A stretch of DNA of 39,728 nucleotides from contig JAQBOS010000345.1 in NCBI GenBank assembly GCA_028287925.1, forward strand, positions 1 to 39,728. Direction: 5' to 3'. This DNA comes from Mucilaginibacter sp. Lineage in GTDB: Bacteria > Bacteroidota > Bacteroidia > Sphingobacteriales > Sphingobacteriaceae. Below, in pieces: positions 35,341 to 39,541 of the stretch. The translations under genes were made by a program, and so were the position numbers. Every line of letters begins with the position of its first letter. The first letter of the stretch is position 1. Below the pieces are notes generated by a model that saw only the letters and a program-made list of their open reading frames with translations, was not told the DNA's origin and did not search any database.

Positions 35341-35979
35341 ATGGAACCTTCCAACAGTACAACATTTCAACCTTCCAACACATATACCCTCGTCATTAAT
35401 GGCAAGCCCGAAGGGCCATTCAGCATTGAGCAGTTAAAAGAACGTAAAATAAAACCGGGCGATTTTTTAAAAACCGCCGATATGGACGATTATAAGGAAG
35501 CCCATGAAATTGCCGAGCTGCGCCTGCTTTTAGGGTTTAGCAAAGAGGCGCTTGTTCCCCAGTATTTTGGCAGTTTTGATCAGCGCCTGATGGCTTCTGC
35601 GCTCGATTGGTTTTTTGTTGCAGGCATATGTATTGTATTTGCATTTATATTATCCCTGTTTGTTAAAGATCAGGCTACGCGCCTTGTAATAGTATTCAGC
35701 CTTTTTGGCGTTATACCCTTAATAAAGCTTATCTACCATGTAATTATGGAATGCTCTGCAAAGCAGGCAACTTATGGCAAGCAGATCCTAAAAATAAAAG
35801 TTGGCGATATGCAGGGCTACCGCATAAGCCCGGGCCGGGCAACCGGCAGAAACCTGGCCAAGCTATTTTCTGTGCTCACCTTTTTTATAGGCTACCTGTT
35901 CAGCTTTTTTAATAAGCAGCAGCAATGCCTTCATGATATGATCGCAGGTACTTTGGTGATGAAGGACAGATTGTTTTGA
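35341..35979 (+). CDS. GYF_2-RDD membrane protein (copy 1)
   Basis: 212 residues. After a 14-residue lead encoded by repeat DNA, a GYF_2 domain (YTLVINGKPEGPFSIEQLKE, about 15-65) precedes an RDD domain with three or four helices. The RDD hallmarks are visible as R and D in FDQRLMASALDWFF, YGKQILKIKV and QCLHDMIAGTLVM. GYF_2 is a presumed protein-binding module on the cytoplasmic side; RDD proteins are membrane proteins, some with transport roles. The gene at 36031-36657 is a convergent paralogue with the same architecture. It follows the PspC/LiaF-like genes but has its own promoter-like element. Confidence 0.88.
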   Translation: MEPSNSTTFQPSNTYTLVINGKPEGPFSIEQLKERKIKPGDFLKTADMDDYKEAHEIAELRLLLGFSKEALVPQYFGSFDQRLMASALDWFFVAGICIVFAFILSLFVKDQATRLVIVFSLFGVIPLIKLIYHVIMECSAKQATYGKQILKIKVGDMQGYRISPGRATGRNLAKLFSVLTFFIGYLFSFFNKQQQCLHDMIAGTLVMKDRLF

Positions 35980-36030: not shown

Positions 36031-36657
36031 CTAAAGTTTTACTACATAGGTTTTGGCAAGCATATCATGCAATGCCTGGCGGTGCTCACTAAAAAATATG
36101 GGTAAAAAGCCTGTATAAAGTATAAGGATAGATACTGCCTTGCCCACACTCCGTAACAACGCATTTAAGTAGCTAAGCCTCATACCATCAATATCAACCA
36201 CCACTATGCGGCATAACTTTTTACCAAGGCTGCCTTTCATGGGTGATGCCTCGCAAATTGAATTATAAAGAATTAGTGTAATACTAAAGCTGAGCTGTAG
36301 TATTAATAAAACACGTGGTTCTTTTATTAAAGCTTCGTATGATTGTATAACAGGAATTACCTTTTGTAAGGCCAATACTTTCACAACAAAGCTGGTTAAA
36401 TAAGAAACAACCAGGTAATCAAAAATCCAGGCTAAAAACCTCCATCCAAATGAGGCCAGGTTATCCCCGGTAGGTAAATAGATCCCTCTCGATTCAAAAT
36501 AAGGATAAAATTCAGGCAGATCACAAGCATCCTGCCAGCTATCGGCTAATGGCGACAGGATTCTTGTATGCACATCAAGGTCCATTTCTGTCAATTCATC
36601 ATAACTAAATGGGCCGCTTTGCTCGTTATCTACTAAAATGTAATATTGATTATTCAT
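36031..36657 (-). CDS. GYF_2-RDD membrane protein (copy 2)
   Basis: 208 residues with the same layout as its convergent neighbour. The GYF_2 domain is at 1-55 (YYILVDNEQSGPFSYDELTE), then an RDD domain: FGWRFLAWIFDYLVV (R and D in helix 1), SLGKKLCRIVVVD, and RQALHDMLAKTYVV at the end. The two copies share perhaps a quarter of positions by eye, so the duplication is old or the copies were brought together later. It starts without any repeat-derived lead, which supports the view that the lead on copy 1 is an addition. The upstream side is a long divergent gap with inverted repeats. Confidence 0.88.
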   Translation of the reverse strand: MNNQYYILVDNEQSGPFSYDELTEMDLDVHTRILSPLADSWQDACDLPEFYPYFESRGIYLPTGDNLASFGWRFLAWIFDYLVVSYLTSFVVKVLALQKVIPVIQSYEALIKEPRVLLILQLSFSITLILYNSICEASPMKGSLGKKLCRIVVVDIDGMRLSYLNALLRSVGKAVSILILYTGFLPIFFSEHRQALHDMLAKTYVVKL

Positions 36658-36935: not shown

Positions 36936-37988
36936 ATGGCAGCACTCCTACTCAAATCAAACCGGAATATTATCCTGATAACTGTTTTAGCCTTATTGAT
37001 ATTTTTAGGCGGAACATTCATGCTTCATACAGTTCCGATATCAGTTAAAAATAAAGTTGCCAATGGTTTGCTGGCAGATTTTGTAATTACATTTCCTGTA
37101 CTTTTCTACTTTATAATAGTACGCCCTTTAAAAGTTTCAGTAAAGCGGATGTTATTTGTGATCAGCTTATGTTGCGGCTTTGCTTATTTAGTACTTCCAC
37201 AGCATCAAAGAGAATACATCCTGCAGATCCGTAAACTTACTGCCGTAGCCGAACTCCTTTTTATTATTTATGCTGTTACTAAGTTTAATAAATTAAGGAA
37301 AGCTTATAAAGCCCATCAACTCCTGTTAACCGATCCTATTTATAATTTGCGCGCCGCAATGGCCGAAATTATGGGCGAATCAGTAGCTGTGAAAATAATA
37401 GCGTCAGAGTTAGCCGTACTCAGGTATGGTTTACTTTTTTGGAGGAAGGAAACACCGGCATTAAAAGCAAGCCGCTCTTTCAGTACCCACAAAGAGTTTG
37501 GGTATGTTGCTATCTGGTGTATTTTACTACTGGCGGTTATGGTAGAAATTACAGCGTTCCATTTTTTATTAATGAAATGGAGCCATCTAGCCGCAAATAT
37601 AGTCACCGGCCTATCGCTTTATGGCGTTATCTTTTTCGTTGCTGACCTGTCTGCAGTTATAAAAAGAAAGGTACTTATAAGTGATGAACAAATAATTTTA
37701 CGTACAGGGTTACGCTGGCGGGTTTGCACTGATTTAAACAATATTAGCGCCGTAACCAAAATCACCAATGATTATCATTCAGCCGATCCTTTTTTTAAGG
37801 GAGGTATAAGCAAAAACAGCGGCAACATGCTTATCACATTTAAAGAGCCCGTAAAGGTTGATAAGCTATATGGAGCAAGTAAAGAAGCAAATTCCATTTT
37901 AATGCATATTGATGATTTTGAATTGTTTGCCGTTACGCTGCGCTGCCGCGAGTTACGTTGCGCTAAACTCGCGGTATTGCATTGCTGA
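36936..37988 (+). CDS. Membrane protein with PH-like C-terminus, tail from repeat DNA
   Basis: 350 residues with about six hydrophobic helices (around 12-30, 45-62, 70-87, 100-115, 188-210, 217-238). A C-terminal segment resembles a small bacterial PH-like domain (VLISDEQIILRTGLRWRVCT to MHIDDFELFA). I recognise no characterised family. The last 18 residues (VTLRCRELRCAKLAVLHC) are encoded by a palindromic repeat that recurs 107 bases downstream; they look like a run-through of the original C-terminus after FELFA. The gene converges on ahcY. Confidence 0.75.
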   Translation: MAALLLKSNRNIILITVLALLIFLGGTFMLHTVPISVKNKVANGLLADFVITFPVLFYFIIVRPLKVSVKRMLFVISLCCGFAYLVLPQHQREYILQIRKLTAVAELLFIIYAVTKFNKLRKAYKAHQLLLTDPIYNLRAAMAEIMGESVAVKIIASELAVLRYGLLFWRKETPALKASRSFSTHKEFGYVAIWCILLLAVMVEITAFHFLLMKWSHLAANIVTGLSLYGVIFFVADLSAVIKRKVLISDEQIILRTGLRWRVCTDLNNISAVTKITNDYHSADPFFKGGISKNSGNMLITFKEPVKVDKLYGASKEANSILMHIDDFELFAVTLRCRELRCAKLAVLHC

Positions 37989-38110
37989 AGCTTTCAGCTT
38001 CATAGCATTAATACTATATATTCGGCACCACGGGATAATATGCTTTTGTTTTGTAAGCTGAAAGCTTACAAAATGCCGCTACCACGAGTTACGCTACGCT
38101 AAACTCGCGG
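37931..38110. repeat. Paired palindromic repeats CCGCGAGTT...AACTCGCGG with nested hairpins
   Basis: Two 29-base copies, 37946-37974 and 38082-38110, lie in the same orientation and differ at three positions. Each has nine-base arms (CCGCGAGTT / AACTCGCGG, one change in copy 2). Between them lie two further hairpins: TGAAGCT-TTC-AGCTTCA (37986-38002) and TTTTGTAAGCT-GAA-AGCTTACAAAA (38049-38073, 11-base perfect stem). A partial third copy (GTTACGCTGCGCT, 37932-37944) precedes. This looks like a REP/BIME-type composite element. Confidence 0.75.
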
Positions 38111-38123
38111 TAGCGATGCGATC

Positions 38124-38155
38124 AAAAAAAGGACATGATCCTAAAACCATGCCCT
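38124..38155 (-). terminator. Terminator of ahcY
   Basis: On the minus strand AGGGCATG pairs with CATGTCCT (one G-U) around a ten-base loop, followed by seven T (38130-38124). It lies about 45 bases after the ahcY stop, past an AAAGC-type repeat. Confidence 0.7.
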
Positions 38156-38162
38156 CGTATAT

Positions 38163-38196
38163 TTTACCTTTCGGCTTTCGCCTTTAAGCTTTTACC
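38163..38196. repeat. AAAGC-unit repeat after the ahcY stop
   Basis: On the minus strand this reads GGTAAAAGC-TTAAAGGCGAAAGC-CGAAAGG. It shares the exact 14-mer GCTTTCGCCTTTAA (38174-38187, plus strand) with the repeat at the ligD stop, 19 kb away. Confidence 0.6.
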
Positions 38197-38200
38197 TCAA

Positions 38201-39517
38201 TTAGTATCTGTAATATTCCGGTTTAAACGGACCATCAACAGTTACGCCAATGTACTCAGCCTGGTCCTGGTCTAAAACTTCCAGCTCAACGCCAATTTTG
38301 GCAAGGTGTAAGCGGGCAACTTTTTCGTCAAGGTGTTTTGGCAGGGTGTAAACTTTGTTTTCGTATTGTGCGCCATTATTCCAAAGCTCTAATTGAGCTA
38401 AAGTTTGGTTGGTGAACGAGTTACTCATTACAAAGCTTGGGTGACCTGTTGCACAACCTAAATTTACCAAACGGCCTTCCGCTAAAATAATAACATCATT
38501 TCCGTCAATGGTATACTTGTCAACCTGTGGTTTAATTTCAATTTTGGTATTGCCATAAGCGCCATTTAACCAGGCCATGTCAATCTCGTTATCAAAGTGG
38601 CCAATGTTACAAACGATAGCTTTGTCTTTCAGCGCGCGGAAATGCTCTTCGCGAACAATGTTTTTGTTACCTGTTGCAGTAACAACAATATCAGCTTCTT
38701 TTATAGCAGTGCCAAGCTTTTTAACTTCAAAGCCTTCCATTGCTGCCTGTAAAGCACAGATAGGGTCAATTTCAGTTACTATAACACGTACACCTGAATT
38801 GCGCAATGAATCGGCAGAACCTTTACCTACGTCACCATAACCGCAAACAACAGCCACTTTTCCGGCCATCATCACATCAGTTGCGCGGCGAATGGCATCA
38901 ACCAATGATTCGCGGCAACCGTATTTATTATCAAATTTCGATTTGGTAACAGAGTCGTTAACGTTAATGGCGGGCATTGGCAATGTACCGGCTTTAACAC
39001 GCTCATATAAGCGGTGTACACCTGTAGTAGTTTCTTCTGATAAACCTTTAATACCGGCAACCAGCTCGGGATATTTATCTAAAACCATATTGGTTAAATC
39101 GCCACCATCGTCCAATATCATGTTTAATGGTTTGCGGTCTTCGCCAAAGAATAAGGTTTGCTCAATACACCAGTCAAACTCTTCGGCATTCATACCTTTC
39201 CAGGCATAAACTGAAGTGCCTGCAGCAGCAATAGCAGCGGCAGCATGATCCTGGGTCGAGAAAATGTTACATGATGACCAGGTAACTTCAGCACCCAGTT
39301 CGATCAGTGTTTCGATCAATACGGCGGTTTGGATGGTCATGTGCAGGCAGCCTGCAATGCGGGCGCCCTTCAATGCTTTTGATGGGCCATACTCTTTACG
39401 TAAGGCCATTAAGCCCGGCATTTCTGCTTCGGCTAATTCAATCTCTTTCCGTCCCCATTGGGCTAATGAAAAGTCTTTTACTTTGTACTTGGTGTAAGCG
39501 GTCTCTACTGATGACAT
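38201..39517 (-). CDS. ahcY: S-adenosylhomocysteinase
   Basis: 438 residues from the ATG at 39517 ([16 protein letters not shown]); 12 more codons are open upstream but run through the promoter. The enzyme splits S-adenosylhomocysteine into adenosine and homocysteine with bound NAD+, keeping methylation going. Visible are [17 protein letters not shown], where catalytic K and D lie, the NAD fold [17 protein letters not shown], and [19 protein letters not shown]. The C-terminal KPEYYRY carries the conserved K and Y that reach the neighbouring subunit's NAD. No SAH riboswitch is possible in the roughly 20-base leader. A terminator follows. Confidence 0.97.
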
Positions 39518-39541
39518 AGCGTTTTGTTTTTTTTTGAAATG

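Follow-up and report, generated by a model that had tools for sequence, protein, structure and literature searches.

REPINs have been described as REP doublets that form hairpins (PMC3116915), and in the Bacteroidetes the TnpA_REP subclass 2.6 was reported to have 'atypical secondary structures' beside the gene, with copies elsewhere (PMC6006769). In the literature consulted, the RAYT transposases of this phylum are presented only with such atypical flanking structures. The ends of REP sequences often provide stop codons and sit at the ends of open reading frames (ORFs), as stated in PMC3733652, whose main text mentions neither Mucilaginibacter nor Pedobacter. In Erwinia carotovora, the element RU-1 was found fused to the ECA3499 amidase, whose stop codon was removed and whose C-terminus gained 35 residues (PMC2759123), and the palindromic elements of Rickettsia are translated within host proteins, often in frame inside genes (PMC10969869, PMC3733652). 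C-termini encoded by REP and RU sequences have already been published, and the locus presented here is a well-documented further instance; within the collection of papers searched, nothing turned up on these repeats in Mucilaginibacter.

The window, that is, the whole stretch of 39,728 nucleotides that was analysed, lies on contig C545 of a Mucilaginibacter sp. assembly (G000; 6.2 Mb, 675 contigs, 86% complete). Where two genes converge, it very probably contains a non-autonomous REPIN-like element, the insertion of which rewrote the end of a membrane protein. The element resembles the REPINs of PMC3116915 in its two REP-type palindromes (mostly inverted within the family), its spacer, its occurrence as a dispersed unit and its link to RAYTs. 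It departs from that description in the second, inner hairpin at its ends, the lack of a conserved GTAG, the few copies and the flipped core of its first palindrome, and it is also unlike the REP families treated in PMC3733652, which are tagged with GTAG or CGTC. With subclass 2.6, as outlined in PMC6006769, the family shares the RAYT motifs and the structures that flank the gene and have copies elsewhere, the assignment to this subclass being a matching of motifs by eye alone. The RU-1 case (PMC2759123) is alike in that a small mobile element led to the loss of a stop codon and the extension of a C-terminus; however, RU-1 was described as MITE-like and has no RAYT link in that account. Compared with the Rickettsia palindromic elements (PMC10969869, PMC3733652), the present case concerns a single 3' end and is rare in the sample analysed. 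It offers a clean natural comparison, with and without the insertion, of a REP-type element rewriting a protein end.

The convergent junction and its empty counterpart

The first of the two genes (36936-37988, + strand) encodes a putative membrane protein of 350 residues, the last 18 of which are element-derived. Its designation rests on hydrophobic stretches in the sequence and on low-confidence predicted helices. The Pfam scan of this protein returned no family above the cut-off, and its AlphaFold model (pLDDT 42) was unusable and left aside; hence, the "PH-like domain" placed before the tail by the first-pass annotation was unsupported. The gene was detected in 43 of 149 genomes of the genus, its own included. 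It converges with the gene of an S-adenosylhomocysteine hydrolase (SAHH; 38201-39520, − strand; Pfam AdoHcyase and AdoHcyase_NAD), for which a presumed terminator hairpin, with its T run on the − strand, was read by eye at 38131-38154.

The closest relative found was Mucilaginibacter sp. OK098 (G157), in which the two genes are adjacent, the membrane protein being 90% and SAHH 99% identical to those of the window. The OK098 junction reads TTTGC-GCAA-GCGATCAAAAAAAGG, whereas the window has TTTGC, 187 bp and GCGATCAAAAAAAGG, so that 4 bp in the one stand against 187 bp in the other. Measured against this site, the inserted DNA spans 37931-38117, between TTTGC (ending at 37930) and GCGATC (starting at 38118), and no clean target duplication was visible by eye. 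The OK098 protein ends in FELFAQAIKKRA, with FELFA followed by QAIKKRA, and the terminator hairpin of SAHH holds its stop codon; in the window, the protein continues from FELFA into VTLRCRELRCAKLAVLHC. If the empty state of OK098 is the older one, the insertion would have hit the alanine codon just ahead of the final seven codons of the membrane-protein gene. In the window, the frame passes through the first palindrome and comes to its stop at the left inner hairpin, and 18 element-encoded residues take the place of the original seven.

It had been proposed that the first palindrome copy, together with a partial third copy before it, lies within the reading frame and encodes its last 18 residues. 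This was confirmed, as the ORF 36936-37988 ends in VTLRCRELRCAKLAVLHC (37932-37985, + strand), followed by the stop codon TGA (37986-37988) at the start of the left inner hairpin, and all 18 codons and the stop sit inside the inserted DNA. The accompanying proposal, that the insertion took the old stop and lengthened the protein, also held, with the amendment that seven old codons were displaced too and the net gain was 11 residues. Element-free orthologues ended near FELFA, as anticipated: in an alignment of 30 orthologues (at least 39% identity, the window's included, from the 43 genomes with the gene), the 29 others stop 3 to 15 residues past this motif. None of the residues past FELFA is conserved over the 30 sequences. 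The tail was shared neither by the 29 others nor by three distant homologues (G023, G033 and G031; 24-28% identity), which end 12, 19 and 16 residues past FELFA, respectively, with different residues; since they extend this far, the length past FELFA is uninformative at such identities.

Some minor features were noted around the junction. A short GGCGAAAGCCGAAAGG-type stretch 3' of SAHH (− strand; about 38165-38190 of the window) was also seen by eye in several relatives and was missing in OK098. The genes at 35341-35979 (+ strand) and 36031-36657 (− strand) converge and appeared alike by eye only; the protein of the latter matched GYF_2 and RDD in Pfam.

Element anatomy, repeat family and RAYT transposases

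The inserted DNA opens with a 13-nt partial palindrome core, GTTACGCTGCGCT (37932-37944, + strand), whose letters match the core of many copies in the genus. It is followed by the left outer palindrome A (37942-37976), the core of which is flipped relative to other copies, the left inner hairpin B, GAAGCTTTCAGCTTC (37987-38001), the right inner hairpin B, TTTTGTAAGCTGAAAGCTTACAAAA (38049-38073), and the right outer palindrome A (38078-38114). The two repeat copies (37941-37976 and 38077-38112) align over 36 nt without gaps at 89% identity. The two 29-base copies, three changes apart, that had been noted previously were recovered, but their direct orientation proved to be secondary, since the core of the first is flipped with respect to six other aligned copies of the element. 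Folded as single-stranded DNA, a stretch of 195 nt reached −47.7 kcal/mol, against −28.5 ± 2.9 kcal/mol for shuffles (z −6.7; 0/200 as good). Taken alone, the right palindrome (z −3.3 on one strand, −4.4 on the other) clearly beat its shuffles, and the left one (z −1.8 and −2.6) was weakly better than them. Both inner hairpins had been called strong in the first-pass annotation; this applied to the right one (z −5.5) but not to the left one, which was weak alone (z −1.0). The Rfam scan gave a single match, under its gathering score. The favoured reading is a REP doublet that carries two additional hairpins on the inside and belongs to a Mucilaginibacter family with cognate RAYTs in some relatives.

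Further copies of the repeat, which had been predicted for this genome, were found at one more place, on contig C537 (two mismatches in a 23-mer). This sole additional site holds half a unit, made up of a palindrome and an inner hairpin. With at most one mismatch, the palindrome pattern was present in 59 of the 149 genus genomes (own included), and the backward pattern used as a control gave 0 in every row. The copy number was low, with 3 palindromes in the window's genome and, at no more than one mismatch, up to 23 in G074. When the best five candidates at most were scored per genome, full-length relatives of the interior were obtained at the same site in G142 (MAG RYN_310; 79% identity) and at other places in G093 (75% on contig C12 and 70% on C5) and G157 (72% on C10), and therefore the element was considered a dispersed non-autonomous unit. 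Clusters with several palindromes showed the −+ order in 17 of 26 cases; the window is ++ by way of its flipped core. A tandem array of four palindromes with a 109-bp period was also observed in G097 (contig C6, L044, 1174-1523).

The hairpin was compared in 153 copies (140 distinct 39-mers), chosen at no more than three substitutions from the pattern, and its ten-pair stem was mostly kept. Compensatory changes were clearest at the two outermost stem pairs. In the 140 distinct sequences, and in counts that ignore kinship, pair 4/34 was G-T in 54, G-C in 28, C-G in 24 and A-T in 17, pair 5/33 was C-G in 112 and T-A in 16, and pair 10/28 was A-T in 129 and G-C in 5. Since the pattern-based selection fixes the inner pairs, the evidence for covariation comes mainly from the outer ones. 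Also conserved in the stem are a G-T wobble (125/140) and a 2x2 mismatch. In 22 of the 140 sequences, pair 12/26 is broken, which counts against the favoured explanation. GTAG was absent directly beside the hairpin, where the outer end, read by eye, was mostly GCTGCCG, or else GCTACCG, GCTGTCG or GCTCCCG.

Among the matches listed, at least 13 genomes carried palindromes in inverted −/+ pairs about 650-750 bp apart. Among the loci read, such pairs enclose a full-length RAYT ORF at six (L029, L031, L033, L038, L047 and L049); the ORF is shortened in L046, only RAYT pieces were found in L045 and L050, and L034 likewise has an inverted pair at this distance. The two RAYT proteins scanned, those of L047 and L029, passed NCBIfam NF047646 (REP-associated tyrosine transposase) with 101.8 and 99.2 bits, respectively (cut-off 80), and both matched Pfam Y1_Tnp. 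The motifs NHVH, FWQQ, YIHNNP and SSARDY of the L047 ORF fit those of subclass 2.6, NH[LIV]H, WQ, YIH[QN]NP and SS. At these loci, the RAYT gene is framed on both sides by hairpin B and, further out, by palindrome A, and the window element has the same ends around a short, gene-free spacer.

The RAYT-type gene that had been predicted to go with the repeat was encountered in relatives, flanked by the repeat, but not as an intact cognate in the window's own assembly. In the 86%-complete G000, the best candidate had 53% identity and was cut by a contig end, and the palindrome was missing from the flanks read. Five RAYT relatives, 38-53% identical and one with internal stops, as well as a short fragment, were found in this genome, where the incomplete assembly may hide the cognate gene. 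Searches for an intact cognate RAYT were also negative in G157 (listed as 99% complete; best 49%) and in G142 (best 30%, with a further piece of 40 residues at 65%), and positive in G093 (81%) and G080 (83%). Since the search of its own genome gave no intact cognate RAYT, the element was labelled 'REPIN-like' and the strict REPIN claim was lowered. Judging from related loci and from what is known of the family's biology, mobilisation would take place in trans, by a RAYT acting on the single-stranded hairpins. With the sequences of the covarying hairpin, the cognate RAYT and the empty and filled sites at hand, it becomes directly testable how RAYTs of the Bacteroidetes choose targets, excise elements and recognise hairpins.

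The five RAYT relatives of the window's genome are L019, L020, L021, L022 and L057, and three of them (L020, L021 and L022) adjoin a different hairpin, of the TTCAAGC...GCTTGAA type, when read by eye. The genome thus seems to hold several families of REPs side by side.

Recurrence at the junction and alternative histories

Elements were also found after SAHH in other genomes. In G142, SAHH is followed by a doublet, a 230-aa ORF and then a single palindrome that ends the membrane protein, which terminates in AALPRV with its TAG inside this palindrome; the position of the 230-aa ORF looks as though the elements had carried or trapped it. In G111, a doublet separates SAHH from a 56-codon remnant of the membrane gene (C58:2181-2285, in L052), the end of which is GRCREFSEA. 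In G093, a diverged doublet was seen by eye after SAHH and the neighbouring membrane gene is absent, and G080 has a RAYT-bearing element after SAHH. Thirty SAHH loci were read out of 144 genomes with a match (G106 being covered over only 720 nt), and a palindrome lay within 1.5 kb downstream of SAHH in three of them, G000, G142 and G111; G093 was added by eye. Two minor observations were made at these loci: the 230-aa ORF of G142 (L199, contig C93, 1681-2373, − strand), located between REP-type palindromes, had no Pfam family above the cut-off, and in G093 (L098) the SAHH terminator was apparently duplicated, with a copy on either side of the doublet (by eye).

In the SAHH tree, G000 grouped with G157 (support 1.000) and G142 came next (0.866); the membrane-gene tree alone does not settle the branching (support 0.222). 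Since the occupied G142 branches outside the pair formed by G000 and the empty G157, the distribution implies that an element was either gained twice or gained once and then lost in G157. The second history is a possible, if tentative, alternative. The element would predate the split of G000, G157 and G142, and G157 would have lost it by nearly precise excision, restoring the older C-terminus; the window would represent the retained state, with no fresh insertion, a history compatible with the REPIN-like identity. The branching of G142 speaks in its favour, as does the G142 interior at the same junction, the closest of those found at 79% (full-length copies at other places, 70-75%), and in P. 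fluorescens, sequencing reads are reported to show REP doublets being excised (PMC3116915). Nevertheless, over the whole element the likeness to G142 (73.3%) is hardly above that to the G093 copy on contig C12 (72.1%), which leaves common descent unproven. G142 also differs from the window in its junction bases, and the G093 copy that follows SAHH without the neighbouring gene makes repeated insertion plausible.

Protein ends hit by REPIN-like insertions, the event favoured here for the window, were counted in 125 clusters (107/108 loci) picked among the matches listed, the window and the C537 copy being excluded. For a single palindrome, the element tested comprised the palindrome itself and 7 nt to its left and right, and the two ends of a RAYT-bearing element counted as two clusters. 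A long ORF, of 120 aa or more with 100 of these residues lying outside the element, ended inside the element in 1 of the 125 clusters, the G142 copy at the same membrane gene; the idea that the family often donates C-termini was thus unsupported. A test that required an overlap of 10 nt or more with a core returned 2/125, L049 and L189, both with ORFs that start at the element; this test misses the G142 case, where the overlap is 9 nt.

The elements could instead target intrinsic terminators, the C-terminus being hit because its stop codon overlaps the SAHH terminator. In G000, G142, G111 and G093 (diverged, by eye), an element does follow immediately on the SAHH terminator, and the RAYT-bearing element of G080 follows SAHH. 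Among 151 outer flanks, however, a five-T run was present within 25 nt in 22 and a five-A run in 24, in a crude test confined to T and A runs. No general preference was visible in these counts, and this explanation was considered unlikely.

The flipped core and the element-encoded tail

The first palindrome of six other aligned copies has GAGTTTA (or GAGTTTG, GAGGTTA) on the left and CTCGT on the right, and that of the window has GAGTTACG on the left and TAAACTCGCGG on the right, resembling a right-hand palindrome. In the frame of the window, the usual orientation of the core hits a TAA within the palindrome, as in G111, where it produces the end GRCREFSEA. The window frame reaches the TGA at hairpin B because the flipped core avoids this earlier stop. 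The flipped core presumably arose by inversion.

Most likely, the 18-residue tail is a tolerated by-product of the REPIN-like insertion, without a function of its own. Selection on its Cys, Arg and Leu residues, for instance as a membrane- or metal-contacting end, would fit a frame kept open through a flipped core that was seen in 0/6 other aligned copies, but it is very improbable given that the tail was found in one genome only, that the other insertions at the junction give different and shorter ends (AALPRV in G142; GRCREFSEA in G111) and that nothing past FELFA is conserved across the 30 orthologues.

Additionally, the junction might be a recurrent and reversible site for RAYT-linked REP doublets, at which inversion of the core shifts the in-frame stop and a single family writes alternative C-termini, although this was judged unlikely. 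If it were true, the alternative ends would be QAIKKRA (no element), AALPRV (G142) and the 18-residue tail (window). In another doublet, L137, the first core was apparently flipped too, when read by eye.
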